Below the pieces are notes generated by a model. That model did not search any database. It was not told where the DNA came from and saw nothing but the letters and a program-made list of their open reading frames with translations. Made by a program: the position numbers and the translations under genes. Shown here one piece after another: positions 14,953 through 19,104 of a DNA stretch of 64,000 nucleotides; the first letter of the stretch is position 1, and every line of letters starts with the position of its first letter. Source of the stretch: Anaerolineales bacterium (GTDB lineage: Bacteria; Chloroflexota; Anaerolineae; Anaerolineales; Villigracilaceae); assembly GCA_026928255.1 (NCBI GenBank), contig JAIXKJ010000008.1, positions 907,298 to 971,297 on the forward strand, in the 5' to 3' direction.

Positions 14953-16197
14953 ATGAAAAAAATACCTGTCGCTAAAAATAAGAGACTGCGCCTCTTGCTT
15001 AACCTCAGCCTGTTGACTGCGCTTCTCGCCGCTTGCCAACCCGCGCCGACGCCCGTCGCCCTCGACCCGAATCAAATGATGACGGCGATGGTGCAAACGA
15101 TTGCCGCGCAGTTGAGCGCCCCCAGCGAAACGCCCGCGCCGCCGCCATCCACCGACACCCCCGCGCCCACGGCGACTCTTCCGCCGCGCACGCCGCCCGC
15201 TCTGCCGCCATCCACCGACACCCCCGCGCCCACGGCGACTCTTCCGCCGCGCACGCCGCCCGCTCTGCCGCCCGTTTACCAAACCTCGCTGCTCAAAGCG
15301 GACGACTTGCCCCGTCAATATGCGGCGGATTCTTGTCAATATCTTAAGAACAAATGGGACTCGACTAAAGCCGCGCCGGGCACGGTGGTTATGGTCGTCA
15401 TGTATCACGGCATTAACAAAGGCGACGCCAGCGGCAACGCGGTTACGGTTAGCAAGCACGAGCAAAATATGCGCGCCTTGCACGAAGCGGGTTTTGAAGC
15501 GATTACCACGCAACAACTCGCGGACTTTATGTACGACAACGCCTACATCCCGCCGCGCTCGGTGTTGCTCATCGCCGACGACCGCCATTTTGCCGAATAC
15601 TTCAACGACCATTGGCGGCCTTATTACGAGCAGTGGGGCTGGCCTGTCGTCAACGCTTACATCGGCTTGGACGAACGCCCCGACCTGTGGGCGGAAAACG
15701 CCGCGCTTTCCGCCGAAGGCTGGGTGGACTATCAAGCGCACGGGTATGTGCATAACGTCAACATCACCAACGCTTCGGATGACGCTTTCATCGAAAGCGA
15801 AATGGGCGGCGCGATTCGTTCGCTGCAAAAATACATGGACAAAACGCCGATTGCCTACATTTGGCCCGGCGGCGGATTCACGCAACGCGCCGTCGAAATC
15901 GGGACGCAACTCGGCTACAAACTGGGATTCACCGTCAACGAGCGCGGGCCGATTATGTACAACTGGGTTCCGCAAGCGGACGCGGTCAACGCCGCCAACC
16001 CGATCGCCATTCCCGAAGTCCCCGCGGGCAACCCGCTGATGACGCTTCCGCGTTATTGGAGCGCCAACGTGCAACAGCATTTGGACGAAGTGCGAATCAT
16101 CGGCAAGGAAGCCGCCGCCTACGCCGAACAAAACAAAGCGACCGAATTGGACTATTACGACATCGTCTGCGCGCCGACGTATGGGGCGATTCCCTAA
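14953..16197 (+). CDS. Polysaccharide deacetylase-like lipoprotein, metal-site residues present
   Basis: A 414-residue exported lipoprotein: positively charged start, hydrophobic core and lipobox LLAAC around residues 25-29, then a Pro/Thr-rich linker containing a perfect 21-residue duplication, then a NodB-like domain. The domain shows VVMVVMYHGIN, the Asp pair in LLIADDRHF and His residues in AHGYVHN, matching the Asp-Asp and HxxxH metal site of carbohydrate esterase family 4, although the usual LTFDDG loop is altered to LIADDR. Later come IWPGGGFTQRAVE and ERGPIMYNWVP. It may remove acetyl groups from wall or extracellular polysaccharide. A degenerate paralogue follows directly. Confidence 0.78.
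   Translation: MKKIPVAKNKRLRLLLNLSLLTALLAACQPAPTPVALDPNQMMTAMVQTIAAQLSAPSETPAPPPSTDTPAPTATLPPRTPPALPPSTDTPAPTATLPPRTPPALPPVYQTSLLKADDLPRQYAADSCQYLKNKWDSTKAAPGTVVMVVMYHGINKGDASGNAVTVSKHEQNMRALHEAGFEAITTQQLADFMYDNAYIPPRSVLLIADDRHFAEYFNDHWRPYYEQWGWPVVNAYIGLDERPDLWAENAALSAEGWVDYQAHGYVHNVNITNASDDAFIESEMGGAIRSLQKYMDKTPIAYIWPGGGFTQRAVEIGTQLGYKLGFTVNERGPIMYNWVPQADAVNAANPIAIPEVPAGNPLMTLPRYWSANVQQHLDEVRIIGKEAAAYAEQNKATELDYYDIVCAPTYGAIP
15141..15266 (+). repeat. Perfect 63-bp tandem duplication inside the lipoprotein linker
   Basis: Two identical 63-bp units (15141-15203 and 15204-15266) encode 21 residues each of the Pro/Thr-rich linker. The lack of any difference, even at synonymous positions, points to a recent duplication. 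Confidence 0.95.
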
Positions 16198-16204
16198 TTC
16201 CGTT

Positions 16205-16210
16205 TACAAT
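16205..16210 (+). promoter_or_regulatory. -10 box of a probable leaderless promoter (deacetylase-like lipoprotein 2)
   Basis: TACAAT, six bases, then ATG at 16217. No Shine-Dalgarno is seen. Confidence 0.5.
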
Positions 16211-16216
16211 CGTTTT

Positions 16217-17305
16217 ATGCAATCTTCGCAAAGTATTTTTTCGTTCGCCTTTCGCGCCGCGCTGATTGTCGCCGTCGTTTCCATTTTGGCGTCTTGTCAG
16301 TTGTCGCCCGCGCCGACAGAACCCGCGCCGACTCAAGAATCGCAAACGGAACGTCCCGATTTGCCCGCAACCTTCCAAACCGATTTGTTAAATCCGCTTG
16401 ACGCGCCGCATTCTTACGTTGAAAAAACCTGTCGTTACCTCCGCAACAAATGGAAGCCGGAGAACGCGCAGCCCGGTTCGGTCGTGATGGCGATTCTCTT
16501 CAAAGAGATTATTTTGGATTCCGCCGAACGTCCGAACAGCATCCGCGAGCCGGATTTTCTCAAATTGATGGAGCAACTTAAAGCGCAAGAATTTGAAGCG
16601 ATTACGCTTTCGCAATTTCAAGCCTTTCTCGAACGCAACGCCTACATTCCGCCGCGCTCGGTTTTGCTCATTCAAGACGGCAATCACAGTCAAAAATATT
16701 TTGAAGACCGTTTTGGATCGTATTATAAAAAGTGGGGCTGGACGGTTATTAACGGCTACGTCAGCCTGCCCAACCCCGACCCGATTTTGCACATGGAAAA
16801 TTTGACTCTGGAAGCCGAAGGCTTTGTGGATCATCAAGCGCGGGGCGTAACGCCGGATACGATTCTCTTAAACGACACGGCGAAGACCGTCATCGCCCGC
16901 GAATTGCAAGGTTCGCTGAAAGGGCTGTCCGCGCAGTTTGGCAAAAGCCCGGTCGCCGTCGTCTGGCCCAACGGCGGATTCGGCGCGCGCCCCGTCGAGG
17001 CGGCGCGGCAGTTAAATTTCAAAATCGGATTCACCCAAAATCAACGCGGACCGATTATGTACAATTGGATTCCGCTCGCCGACCGCGCCGACCCCGAACG
17101 CCCGACCTTAATCCCCGAAGGAAAAATCAACGACCCGATGATGACTCTGCCGACCTACTCGCCGCAAGAAGCCTTCCTCAACATTGACGTTGTTCGGTCG
17201 GTCGGCAAAGCCGCCGCGCAATATGCCGCCAAAAACGAAGGCGCGGAACGCTACTATTACAATGTCGTCTGCGCCGAAGAGTTTGGCGTTTTGCCCGTTC
17301 CGTAA
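16217..17305 (+). CDS. Deacetylase-like lipoprotein paralogue lacking metal ligands
   Basis: A 362-residue paralogue of the preceding protein, with the same plan: signal sequence, lipobox ILASC, short Pro/Thr linker, NodB-like domain. Shared landmarks are RYLRNKWKPENAQPGSVVM, NAYIPPRSVLLI, VWPNGGFGARPVEAA and NQRGPIMYNWIP. The Asp pair is reduced to Asp-Gly (LLIQDGNHS) and the HxxxH segment is replaced (HQARGVTP), so it should not bind the catalytic metal. It is more likely a carbohydrate-binding or accessory partner than an esterase. The ATG at 16217 starts right before the signal peptide. Confidence 0.75.
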   Translation: MQSSQSIFSFAFRAALIVAVVSILASCQLSPAPTEPAPTQESQTERPDLPATFQTDLLNPLDAPHSYVEKTCRYLRNKWKPENAQPGSVVMAILFKEIILDSAERPNSIREPDFLKLMEQLKAQEFEAITLSQFQAFLERNAYIPPRSVLLIQDGNHSQKYFEDRFGSYYKKWGWTVINGYVSLPNPDPILHMENLTLEAEGFVDHQARGVTPDTILLNDTAKTVIARELQGSLKGLSAQFGKSPVAVVWPNGGFGARPVEAARQLNFKIGFTQNQRGPIMYNWIPLADRADPERPTLIPEGKINDPMMTLPTYSPQEAFLNIDVVRSVGKAAAQYAAKNEGAERYYYNVVCAEEFGVLPVP

Positions 17306-17352: not shown

Positions 17353-17694
17353 ATGTCCGATTGTATTTTCTGCAAGATCATTCAAGGAGAAATCCCCAGC
17401 GCCAAAGTTTACGAAGACGATTCGCTCGTCGCCTTCCGCGACATTCAACCCGCCGCGCCGACTCACATTTTGATTGTGCCGAAGAAGCACATTGACTCAG
17501 TCAACGCGCTCGCGCCCGAAGACGAAGCGCTGATTGGCAAAATGTTTAGCGTCGCCAAAGAAATCGCCGCGCAAGAAAGCGTCGCGGAAAAAGGCTACCG
17601 ACTCGTCGTCAACACCGGCGCCGAAGCCGGGCAAACCGTCTTTCACGTTCACCTGCATTTGCTCGGCGGCAGAGACATGCGCGCCTTAATCTAA
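17353..17694 (+). CDS. HIT family nucleotide-binding protein (HinT-like)
   Basis: A 113-residue histidine-triad protein. It starts CIFCKIIQGEIPSAKVYEDD, has the strand HILIVPKKHIDSV and ends with the triad HVHLHLLGGRDM, whose middle His is the nucleophile. HinT proteins hydrolyse AMP-lysine and other purine phosphoramidates. The two Cys residues of CIFC, often zinc-binding with downstream His, are present. GGAG precedes the ATG, and it is 3 bp upstream of the thyX-like gene, so probably co-transcribed. Confidence 0.93.
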   Translation: MSDCIFCKIIQGEIPSAKVYEDDSLVAFRDIQPAAPTHILIVPKKHIDSVNALAPEDEALIGKMFSVAKEIAAQESVAEKGYRLVVNTGAEAGQTVFHVHLHLLGGRDMRALI

Positions 17695-17697
17695 CCC

Positions 17698-19104
17698 ATG
17701 CCCAAACAAGACATCTACCTTCTTTCGCTGCGCGCGTTAAGTCCCGAAACCATCGCCGTCGCCTTTGCCAAAACCTCGCGCGCGCCCGAATCCTTCCGCG
17801 AGATCGCGGCGGAGTTGAGCGACGAAAAGTCCGCGCAGTTTCACGAAAAGTGGGTGGTCGGGTACGGTCATGCTTCCGTCGCCGAACACGCGGTGTTGCA
17901 CGTCGCCTTTGAAAACGTCTCGCGCATCGCCATCGAAAGCATCGAGAGCAGCCGCCTCGCGTCGTACACCGAAAAATCCACGCGCTATCAAAAATGGGGC
18001 ATGGACGATTTCACCGTTCCGCCCGAACTTGACAATCATCCGCTGCGCGACGAATTTATAGAAACTGTGCGCCTGCTTTTCTCGACTTATGCCGAATCGC
18101 TCGACCCGACCAAGAATCTCATCCGCGAGCGGACTCCGCGCCGCGAAAACGAATCGGACGAAGCCTACGATCGCCGCATCCGCTCGCAGTATGTGGACCG
18201 TTGCCGCTTTCTGCTTCCCGCCGCCGCCAACGCCAACGTCGGCATGACCGCCAACGCGCGCGTGATTGAAATAACGCTTCGCAAAATGCTTTCGCATCCG
18301 CTGGCGGAAGTTCGTCAAATTGGCGAGCGTTTGAAAGAAGCCGCAAAAGCCGAAACGCCGACTCTGGTCAAATATGCGGACGCGAACGATTATCTGATAG
18401 AAACGGCGAAAGATTTTTCTCTCGCGTCGACTCAAAAACAAACGGCGGAAGATTGGTGTTCGCTTATTGATTATGACGTTAACGGCGAAGAAAAAATTCT
18501 CGCGGCGGCGCAATACCGCTTTGACGAAATTCCCTACGCGGCGGCGCTGACTCGCGTTCAAGCGCTCGGCGCGGAAGGGCGCGAAGCGCTTGCTGAAAGT
18601 CTGCTTGGCAAATTGGGAAAATACGACGTCCCCTTGCGCGAGTTGGAATATGCGACGTACACGTTTGATTTGGTCATGGATCAAGGCGCGTACGCCGAAT
18701 TCAAACGCCATCGCATGATGACGCAGACTCCGCAACGGCTGACGACGCGGCTGGGGTTTACGACTCCGCTGTTGATAGCAGAAGCGGGCTTCGGGTCCAA
18801 GTATGAGGCGGCGCTGGAAGCGGCGAGTCAAATGTACGAAAAATTATATGCGTTCAATCCCGACGTCGCGCAGTATATCGTCCCCAACGGATTTAAGCGC
18901 CGCGTGTTGGCGCAATTTAATTTGCGCGAAGCCTTCACCTTCTGTCAACTGCGGACGGCGGCAAACGCGCATTTTTCAATTCGGCGCGTCGCGCAAAAAA
19001 TCTACGAAGAAATTTTCCGCGTTCATCCGCTTTTGGCAAACTATATGAAATTGCGCGAAGAGACTTGGCAAAGCGTGGAAGAAAATTATTTTGCGAAGGT
19101 TTAA
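17698..19104 (+). CDS. Tandem-domain ThyX-like flavin-dependent thymidylate synthase
   Basis: At 468 residues this is twice the length of a single ThyX subunit. Half 1 (about residues 1-215) has GHASVAEHAVL, then SSRLASYTEKSTRY (84-97) and FLLPAAANANVGMTANAR. Half 2 (about 265-460) has FKRHRMMTQTPQRL (335-348), YIVPNGFKRRV and FNLREAFTFCQLR. The classic motif RHRxxSxNExSxRY is split: half 1 keeps its second part but has Ser-Ser for Arg-His; half 2 keeps RHR but lacks the SxxExSxRY part. A pseudo-symmetric heteromeric site is likely, methylating dUMP with methylene-folate and FADH2, unless the protein has another role. Confidence 0.8.
   Translation: MPKQDIYLLSLRALSPETIAVAFAKTSRAPESFREIAAELSDEKSAQFHEKWVVGYGHASVAEHAVLHVAFENVSRIAIESIESSRLASYTEKSTRYQKWGMDDFTVPPELDNHPLRDEFIETVRLLFSTYAESLDPTKNLIRERTPRRENESDEAYDRRIRSQYVDRCRFLLPAAANANVGMTANARVIEITLRKMLSHPLAEVRQIGERLKEAAKAETPTLVKYADANDYLIETAKDFSLASTQKQTAEDWCSLIDYDVNGEEKILAAAQYRFDEIPYAAALTRVQALGAEGREALAESLLGKLGKYDVPLRELEYATYTFDLVMDQGAYAEFKRHRMMTQTPQRLTTRLGFTTPLLIAEAGFGSKYEAALEAASQMYEKLYAFNPDVAQYIVPNGFKRRVLAQFNLREAFTFCQLRTAANAHFSIRRVAQKIYEEIFRVHPLLANYMKLREETWQSVEENYFAKV

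Follow-up and report, generated by a model that had tools for sequence, protein, structure and literature searches.

Can a thymidylate synthase whose catalytic motif is divided between two fused domains still serve the cell, and if so, with how many working sites? The question is raised by a gene in the window that we analysed, a stretch of 64,000 nucleotides from an Anaerolineales bacterium. The original prediction placed a tandem flavin-dependent thymidylate synthase (ThyX) at positions 17698-19104, and both the open reading frame and its two Thy1 domains are confirmed by our analysis. The Pfam model PF02511 (Thy1) matches two stretches of the 468-aa protein (3.6e-52 and 177 bits for the whole protein, against a cut-off of 24.8), and the two halves reach 94 and 85 bits in genome-scale scoring. 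The NCBIfam equivalog model for thyX, TIGR02170, gives 88.6 bits, barely above its cut-off of 87.9. The features of the locus are listed here in order; residue positions, here and below, are in Thermotoga ThyX numbering unless given for the 468-aa protein or for PolB or PBCV-1 ThyX.

17353..17694, + strand: HIT-family gene, upstream, 3 bases before the thyX start
17698..19104, + strand: double-domain ThyX gene, 468 aa plus stop, ATG start, two fused Thy1 domains
17698..18375, + strand: N-terminal Thy1 domain, residues 1-226 (hhalign against canonical ThyX, residue counts)
17947..17988, + strand: N-half motif SSRLASYTEKSTRY, residues 84-97; R78 and H79 lost (S84, S85), E86, S88, R90 and Y91 kept (E92, S94, R96, Y97)
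18205..18207, + strand: R170, equivalent to Thermotoga R147, retained in the N half (residue counts, 154/154)
18286..18288, + strand: M197 at the Thermotoga R174 position of the N half; dUMP-activating Arg probably lost (hhalign and MAFFT placement)
18376..18483, + strand: linker, residues 227-262, fast-evolving (identity comparison with near homologues)
18484..19101, + strand: C-terminal Thy1 domain, residues 263-468 (hhalign against canonical ThyX, residue counts)
18706..18714, + strand: C-half RHR, R337-H338-R339, invariant in 154/154
18730..18747, + strand: C-half region of E86, S88, R90 and Y91 (P345, R347, T349, T350), these residues lost
18871..18873, + strand: C-half Q392 in place of R147, Arg lost (Arg in 2/154)
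18952..18954, + strand: R419, equivalent to Thermotoga R174, which activates dUMP; retained in the C half, 154/154

Division of the dUMP-site residues between two domains

The ThyX motif RHRxxSxxxxSxRY is entire in neither domain of the window protein and is divided over the two. In addition to the residues listed above, the N half retains R80 (here R86) and S83; the C-half counterpart of the motif, FKRHRMMTQTPQ, spans residues 335-346. The original prediction had quoted both motif strings, and both prove exact. It had also held that the first half keeps the SxRY part without Arg-His, and that the second keeps RHR and has lost the other motif residues. This description stands with one correction, which is that only the R and the H are lost from N halves, whose third residue is Arg in 115 of the 154 aligned doubles described below.

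The same division extends past the motif to R147 and R174, the first retained in the N half and the second in the C half. At the R174 position of the N half, a MAFFT alignment with 25 viral single-domain ThyX and hhalign concur on M197, and a helix that is continuous over residues 187-198 in our AF2 model fits this placement. We considered whether R174 might be retained in the N half as R195 or K196, and rejected this because two alignment methods and the continuous helix put M197 there. The conserved K/R196 beside M197 still leaves some doubt on the loss of R174, and a basic group could remain in the N half, in which case this side might keep some function.

The full dUMP residue set occurs once per polypeptide, as R337, S94, R96, Y97, R170 and R419 (R78, S88, R90, Y91, R147 and R174, respectively). 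The residues close to FAD are preserved across the halves of the window protein, with R78, H79 and R80 in the C half, E86 and S88 in the N half, and N163 and R165 in both. Because the whole motif set is present once per polypeptide, the protein is best filed as a variant of ThyX and not as a canonical ThyX.

Solved ThyX-type enzymes provide a potential explanation for this arrangement. The dUMP-type site of PolB is made of R82, H83, R86 and R193 of one monomer together with E94', S96', A97', R98' and R166' of its neighbour (PMC5003785), and in PBCV-1 ThyX, monomer A contributes Q75 and R182 while monomer B contributes S88 and Q89 (PMC3498832). Expressed in Thermotoga numbering, Q75, R78 and R174 belong to one monomer, and E86, S88, R90 and R147 to the next. 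By motif alignment, we assigned PolB R86 as the equivalent of R78, R193 as that of R174, and R166' as that of R147. Because a single dUMP site is built by two chains, the two ends of the 14-residue motif in one chain contribute to separate sites. Once two domains are fused, the residues of one reciprocal site can disappear and the other site stay intact, and the halves show this pattern.

Judged by alignment, the partition of the two half-proteins, including R147 and R174 outside the motif, tracks the chain contributions in PolB and PBCV-1. One complete dUMP site is apparently encoded per polypeptide, which should give two, not four, per pseudo-tetramer. These chain assignments support the original proposal that a fused, complementary pair could make half the number of working sites.

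The single-domain ThyX enzymes, such as TM0449 of Thermotoga maritima and the ThyX of M. tuberculosis (PF02511, TIGR02170), share their fold and family with the double and have the site at a subunit interface, as is predicted for the double, and every dUMP-site residue that we checked occurs somewhere in the double. The double differs from them in carrying two domains per chain, each with half the residues, and in having one complete site per two domains. In the monomeric dUTPases of herpesviruses, subunit duplication and fusion converted an oligomer that formerly shared its sites into a protein with one composite site left. The logic is the same as for double ThyX, although the enzyme and the fold are unrelated.

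The AF2 model, built from a mixed alignment (pLDDT 89.3, pTM 0.86), has the helix and strand order of ThyX in both halves; a model from 32 close homologues (pLDDT 53, pTM 0.39) was discarded. The best PDB matches listed for the model are all ThyX, with TM scores normalised to the target of ~0.7, and no double ThyX structure is among these listed matches. A pTM of 0.86 for a two-domain chain suggests a defined pairing of the domains only, and we infer the geometry of the composite site from homology.

Against near homologues, dN/dS is 0.03-0.11 in both halves, and identity is 31-53% in the linker and 76-91% in the two domains. Both halves are under strong purifying selection, and the linker is free to vary.

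Extent and origin of the split

We examined 161 double ThyX, of which 154 could be aligned (from Anaerolineae, other Chloroflexota, viral contigs and two phage genomes, in 47 clusters below 70% identity) and 7 more are doubles of a second type. Without exception (161/161), the N half carries S-x-R-[YF] and lacks RHR upstream of it, and the C half carries RHR. A single C half (L216) contains S-E-R-F by chance, 28 residues past RHR, where the canonical register is ~10 residues past RHR.

The complete residue partition is obeyed in every aligned double (154/154, 47 clusters). Their N halves have invariant S88, R90 and R147, have Y or F at Y91, keep E at E86 in 152 cases, and never have Arg at the R78 position (0/154). 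In the C halves, RHR and R174 are invariant, S88 occurs together with R90 in none, and R147 is lost in 152 of 154. The residues that replace the lost ones in C halves differ by clade, being P, F, R or W at E86 and R, A, L or P at S88. In single-domain viral ThyX, R78, H79, S88, R90, Y91, R147 and R174 stand together in one chain (25/25).

The second type of double (L244-L250, families f19 and f33) is strongly diverged, yet colinear with the first (hhalign probability 99.4%). The split is identical, with HSHPFYNSEQVSQRY in the N half and RHR in the C half, and there are cysteines in the C-terminal tail. The phage doubles, from Microcystis phage LMM01 and Tunturiibacter phage Tunturi_5, are annotated as thymidylate synthase and match the two-domain layout and the partition at 24-30% identity; they differ from the window protein in being phage-encoded and strongly diverged in sequence. 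A search of viral contigs with the Tunturi_5 double ThyX protein gave no match.

The N and C profiles built with diverse members match each other in hhalign with an E of 3e-8 over 172 columns; profiles built from near relatives only have no similarity (probability 0.7%). The match obtained with diverse members shows that both halves are ThyX domains of common descent. We built a tree of the halves and canonical ThyX, in which long branches leave the type-2 halves and the root unplaced; the 27 N halves group together as a clade (100/100), as do the 27 C halves (100/98). The two clades branch alike internally, and L173 (G321, family f72) is basal in both. This two-clade pattern is the one predicted by a single fusion preceding the radiation. 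The N half of L173, VQHRLAAYTQHSGRY, reads QHR, so that His79 and R80 are present and R78 is absent, and it represents a less-derived state.

Valas and Bourne (2009) noted that the ThyX of Chloroflexi other than Dehalococcoides, and of a few other species, has an uncharacterised domain duplication (PMC3224940). Their account gives the duplication only, without an active-site analysis, the split, its extension to R147 and R174, or its invariance. Our search of the open-access literature turned up no account of the complementary split, which is weak evidence of absence, and the 2009 note is the sole mention of doubles that we found there. The residue split belongs to a large, old family and not to the window gene alone, and it may be new; the domain duplication has been known since 2009.

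Two Thy1 matches elsewhere in the class do not always mark a double; we rejected this rule because many of these cases are inteins or insertions in single ThyX. Two single-domain ThyX of the same class, L194 (G191) and L198 (G093), have apparent HNH-type inteins that interrupt the motif between its RHR and SxRY ends (in L194, RHRLASY is followed by CIDG...HN, and then by SQESQRY). Another single-domain ThyX, L193 (G188, family f38), has an insertion of ~110 aa between the domain start and RHR, in which we noticed no intein signs. In a separate observation, His53, a folate/flavin contact, is Asp (GYGDDSVAEL) in the N halves of 26 of the 154 doubles, for example L150 and L164; a structure of Thermotoga ThyX with the H53D mutation has been solved (4kar).

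Thymidylate synthesis in the host and its relatives

The host bacterium appears to rely on the double ThyX as its sole thymidylate synthase. In the host genome (2.7 Mb, 99.4% complete), we found neither ThyA nor DHFR, nor a canonical ThyX; thymidine kinase is present, and the Thy1 genes are the double and one of phage type. The latter encodes 313 aa without RHR (L243:8819-9760) and lies on contig 13 (C13), a 52-kb contig with phage genes, including a Dda-like helicase and HNH endonucleases beside the ThyX-like gene. Its product is ~43% identical to ORF193 of Vibrio phage ICP1. We rejected this gene as a functional backup because it is phage-type, lacks RHR and adjoins the Dda-like helicase and HNH genes. 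The original prediction had proposed a search of the genome for thyA or a standard thyX, and with no ThyA and a sole other Thy1 gene of phage type, neither stands beside the double.

We sampled 37 genomes of the same order, of which 36 carry Thy1 matches and not one carries ThyA. In 399 genomes from across Chloroflexota, matches to the ThyA family occur in 5 of the 135 with a strong double and in 58 of the 264 without one (Fisher p 4e-7), a comparison in which the 135 double-carrying genomes were picked by hand from the match table and ThyA-family matches of mixed strength were counted, the 5 alongside doubles all being weak at ~50 bits. For many Chloroflexota, doubles seem to be the chief or sole thymidylate synthase, and some phages carry them too.

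Two groups of relatives depart from this distribution. One genome of the same order (G193, family f2), a single 2.9-Mb contig that is 99% complete, is without ThyX, ThyA and DHFR and has thymidine kinase. It is possibly a natural thymidine auxotroph, or possibly has a novel synthase; given this genome, de novo dTMP synthesis may be dispensable in some relatives. In genus g182 (G305, G314, G343, G488 and G516), weak ThyA-family matches lie within ORFs of ~500-650 aa and there is no double ThyX. Other genera of family f63 carry the double, and g182 is a possible case of its replacement by an unusual ThyA.

Function of the fused pair

We consider it highly likely that the fused ThyX pair acts as the flavin-dependent thymidylate synthase of the cell, each domain contributing one side of the site and two sites working per pseudo-tetramer; here we infer that the protein is active, that it forms the tetramer and how many of its sites work. 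Two chains would pack into a pseudo-tetramer in the ordinary ThyX arrangement. The C domain would supply the R78, H79, R80 and R174 side of the dUMP/FAD site, and the N domain the side with E86, S88, R90, Y91 and R147. Pairing of the C-domain RHR with the N-domain SxRY would create two complete working sites per pseudo-tetramer, and the reciprocal pair of sites, where the SS of the N domain meets the TT positions of the C domain, would be dead for dUMP. A single ThyX gene would have been duplicated and fused, with complementary loss, before the family radiated.

If this model is correct, the double is a natural subunit-complementation experiment on ThyX, which shows which residue serves which site and that two sites per tetramer suffice for life. 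It would also provide a scaffold for mutating either side of the site independently, and a clean case of complementary loss after duplication and fusion within an essential enzyme, with L173 keeping part of the lost half.

The reciprocal interfaces that we expect to be dead might form a second type of site, for example for a regulatory nucleotide or folate, or a structural holder of FAD. We regard this as unlikely. A hint of retained function at these interfaces comes from the basic residue at 196 in N halves (K or R in 127/154), the acidic residue at the Q75 position in C halves (153/154), and R314, which is invariant in the C halves of near relatives. If these interfaces do form a second type of site, the double ThyX would be asymmetric, with two of its sites catalytic and the other two not.

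It is very unlikely that the double is a pseudoenzyme, or a ThyX relative with a secondary function, in cells that obtain dTMP by thymidine salvage. Such salvage is possible with the thymidine kinase of the host, G193 seems to live without ThyX or ThyA in the presence of this kinase, and the PDB title of 3ge9 describes a ThyX of Corynebacterium glutamicum as one that thymidylate biosynthesis does not require. However, each of the 154 proteins retains all catalytic residues, divided over its two halves, and both halves are under strong purifying selection. ThyA is also nearly always absent where the double occurs, and the lack of DHFR is expected where a ThyX, which returns tetrahydrofolate, is the synthase.

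Within a working thymidylate synthase, one could also suppose that all four sites of the pseudo-tetramer are active and that the reciprocal site uses substitute residues. R80 in 115 of 154 N halves, together with the basic 196 and acidic Q75-position residues described above, would be the material for such substitution. We give this little credence, as the C half has no consistent substitute for S88, R90 and Y91 and loses R147 in 152 of 154, and in Thermotoga ThyX the S88A, R90A and Y91A mutations strongly slow the reaction (PMC8316439).

Least likely of all is that the double works as a ThyX-type methylase but acts mainly on a different substrate, such as UMP or a nucleoside-antibiotic precursor; as PolB demonstrates, relatives of ThyX can move to UMP with the site little changed (PMC5003785), but the double is distributed as the near-universal synthase of an order without ThyA, and we saw no biosynthetic cluster directly adjoining it, the upstream gene encoding a HIT protein.

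At the window locus, the HIT gene and the double thyX are perhaps cotranscribed. We rejected the HIT gene as a functional partner of the double ThyX because the two are adjacent in only 12 of 80 related loci. Further upstream, 14953-16197 and 16181-17305 (both + strand) are adjacent paralogous lipoprotein-like genes with a common layout (for example, SCQYLKNKW and TCRYLRNKW near the N terminus).
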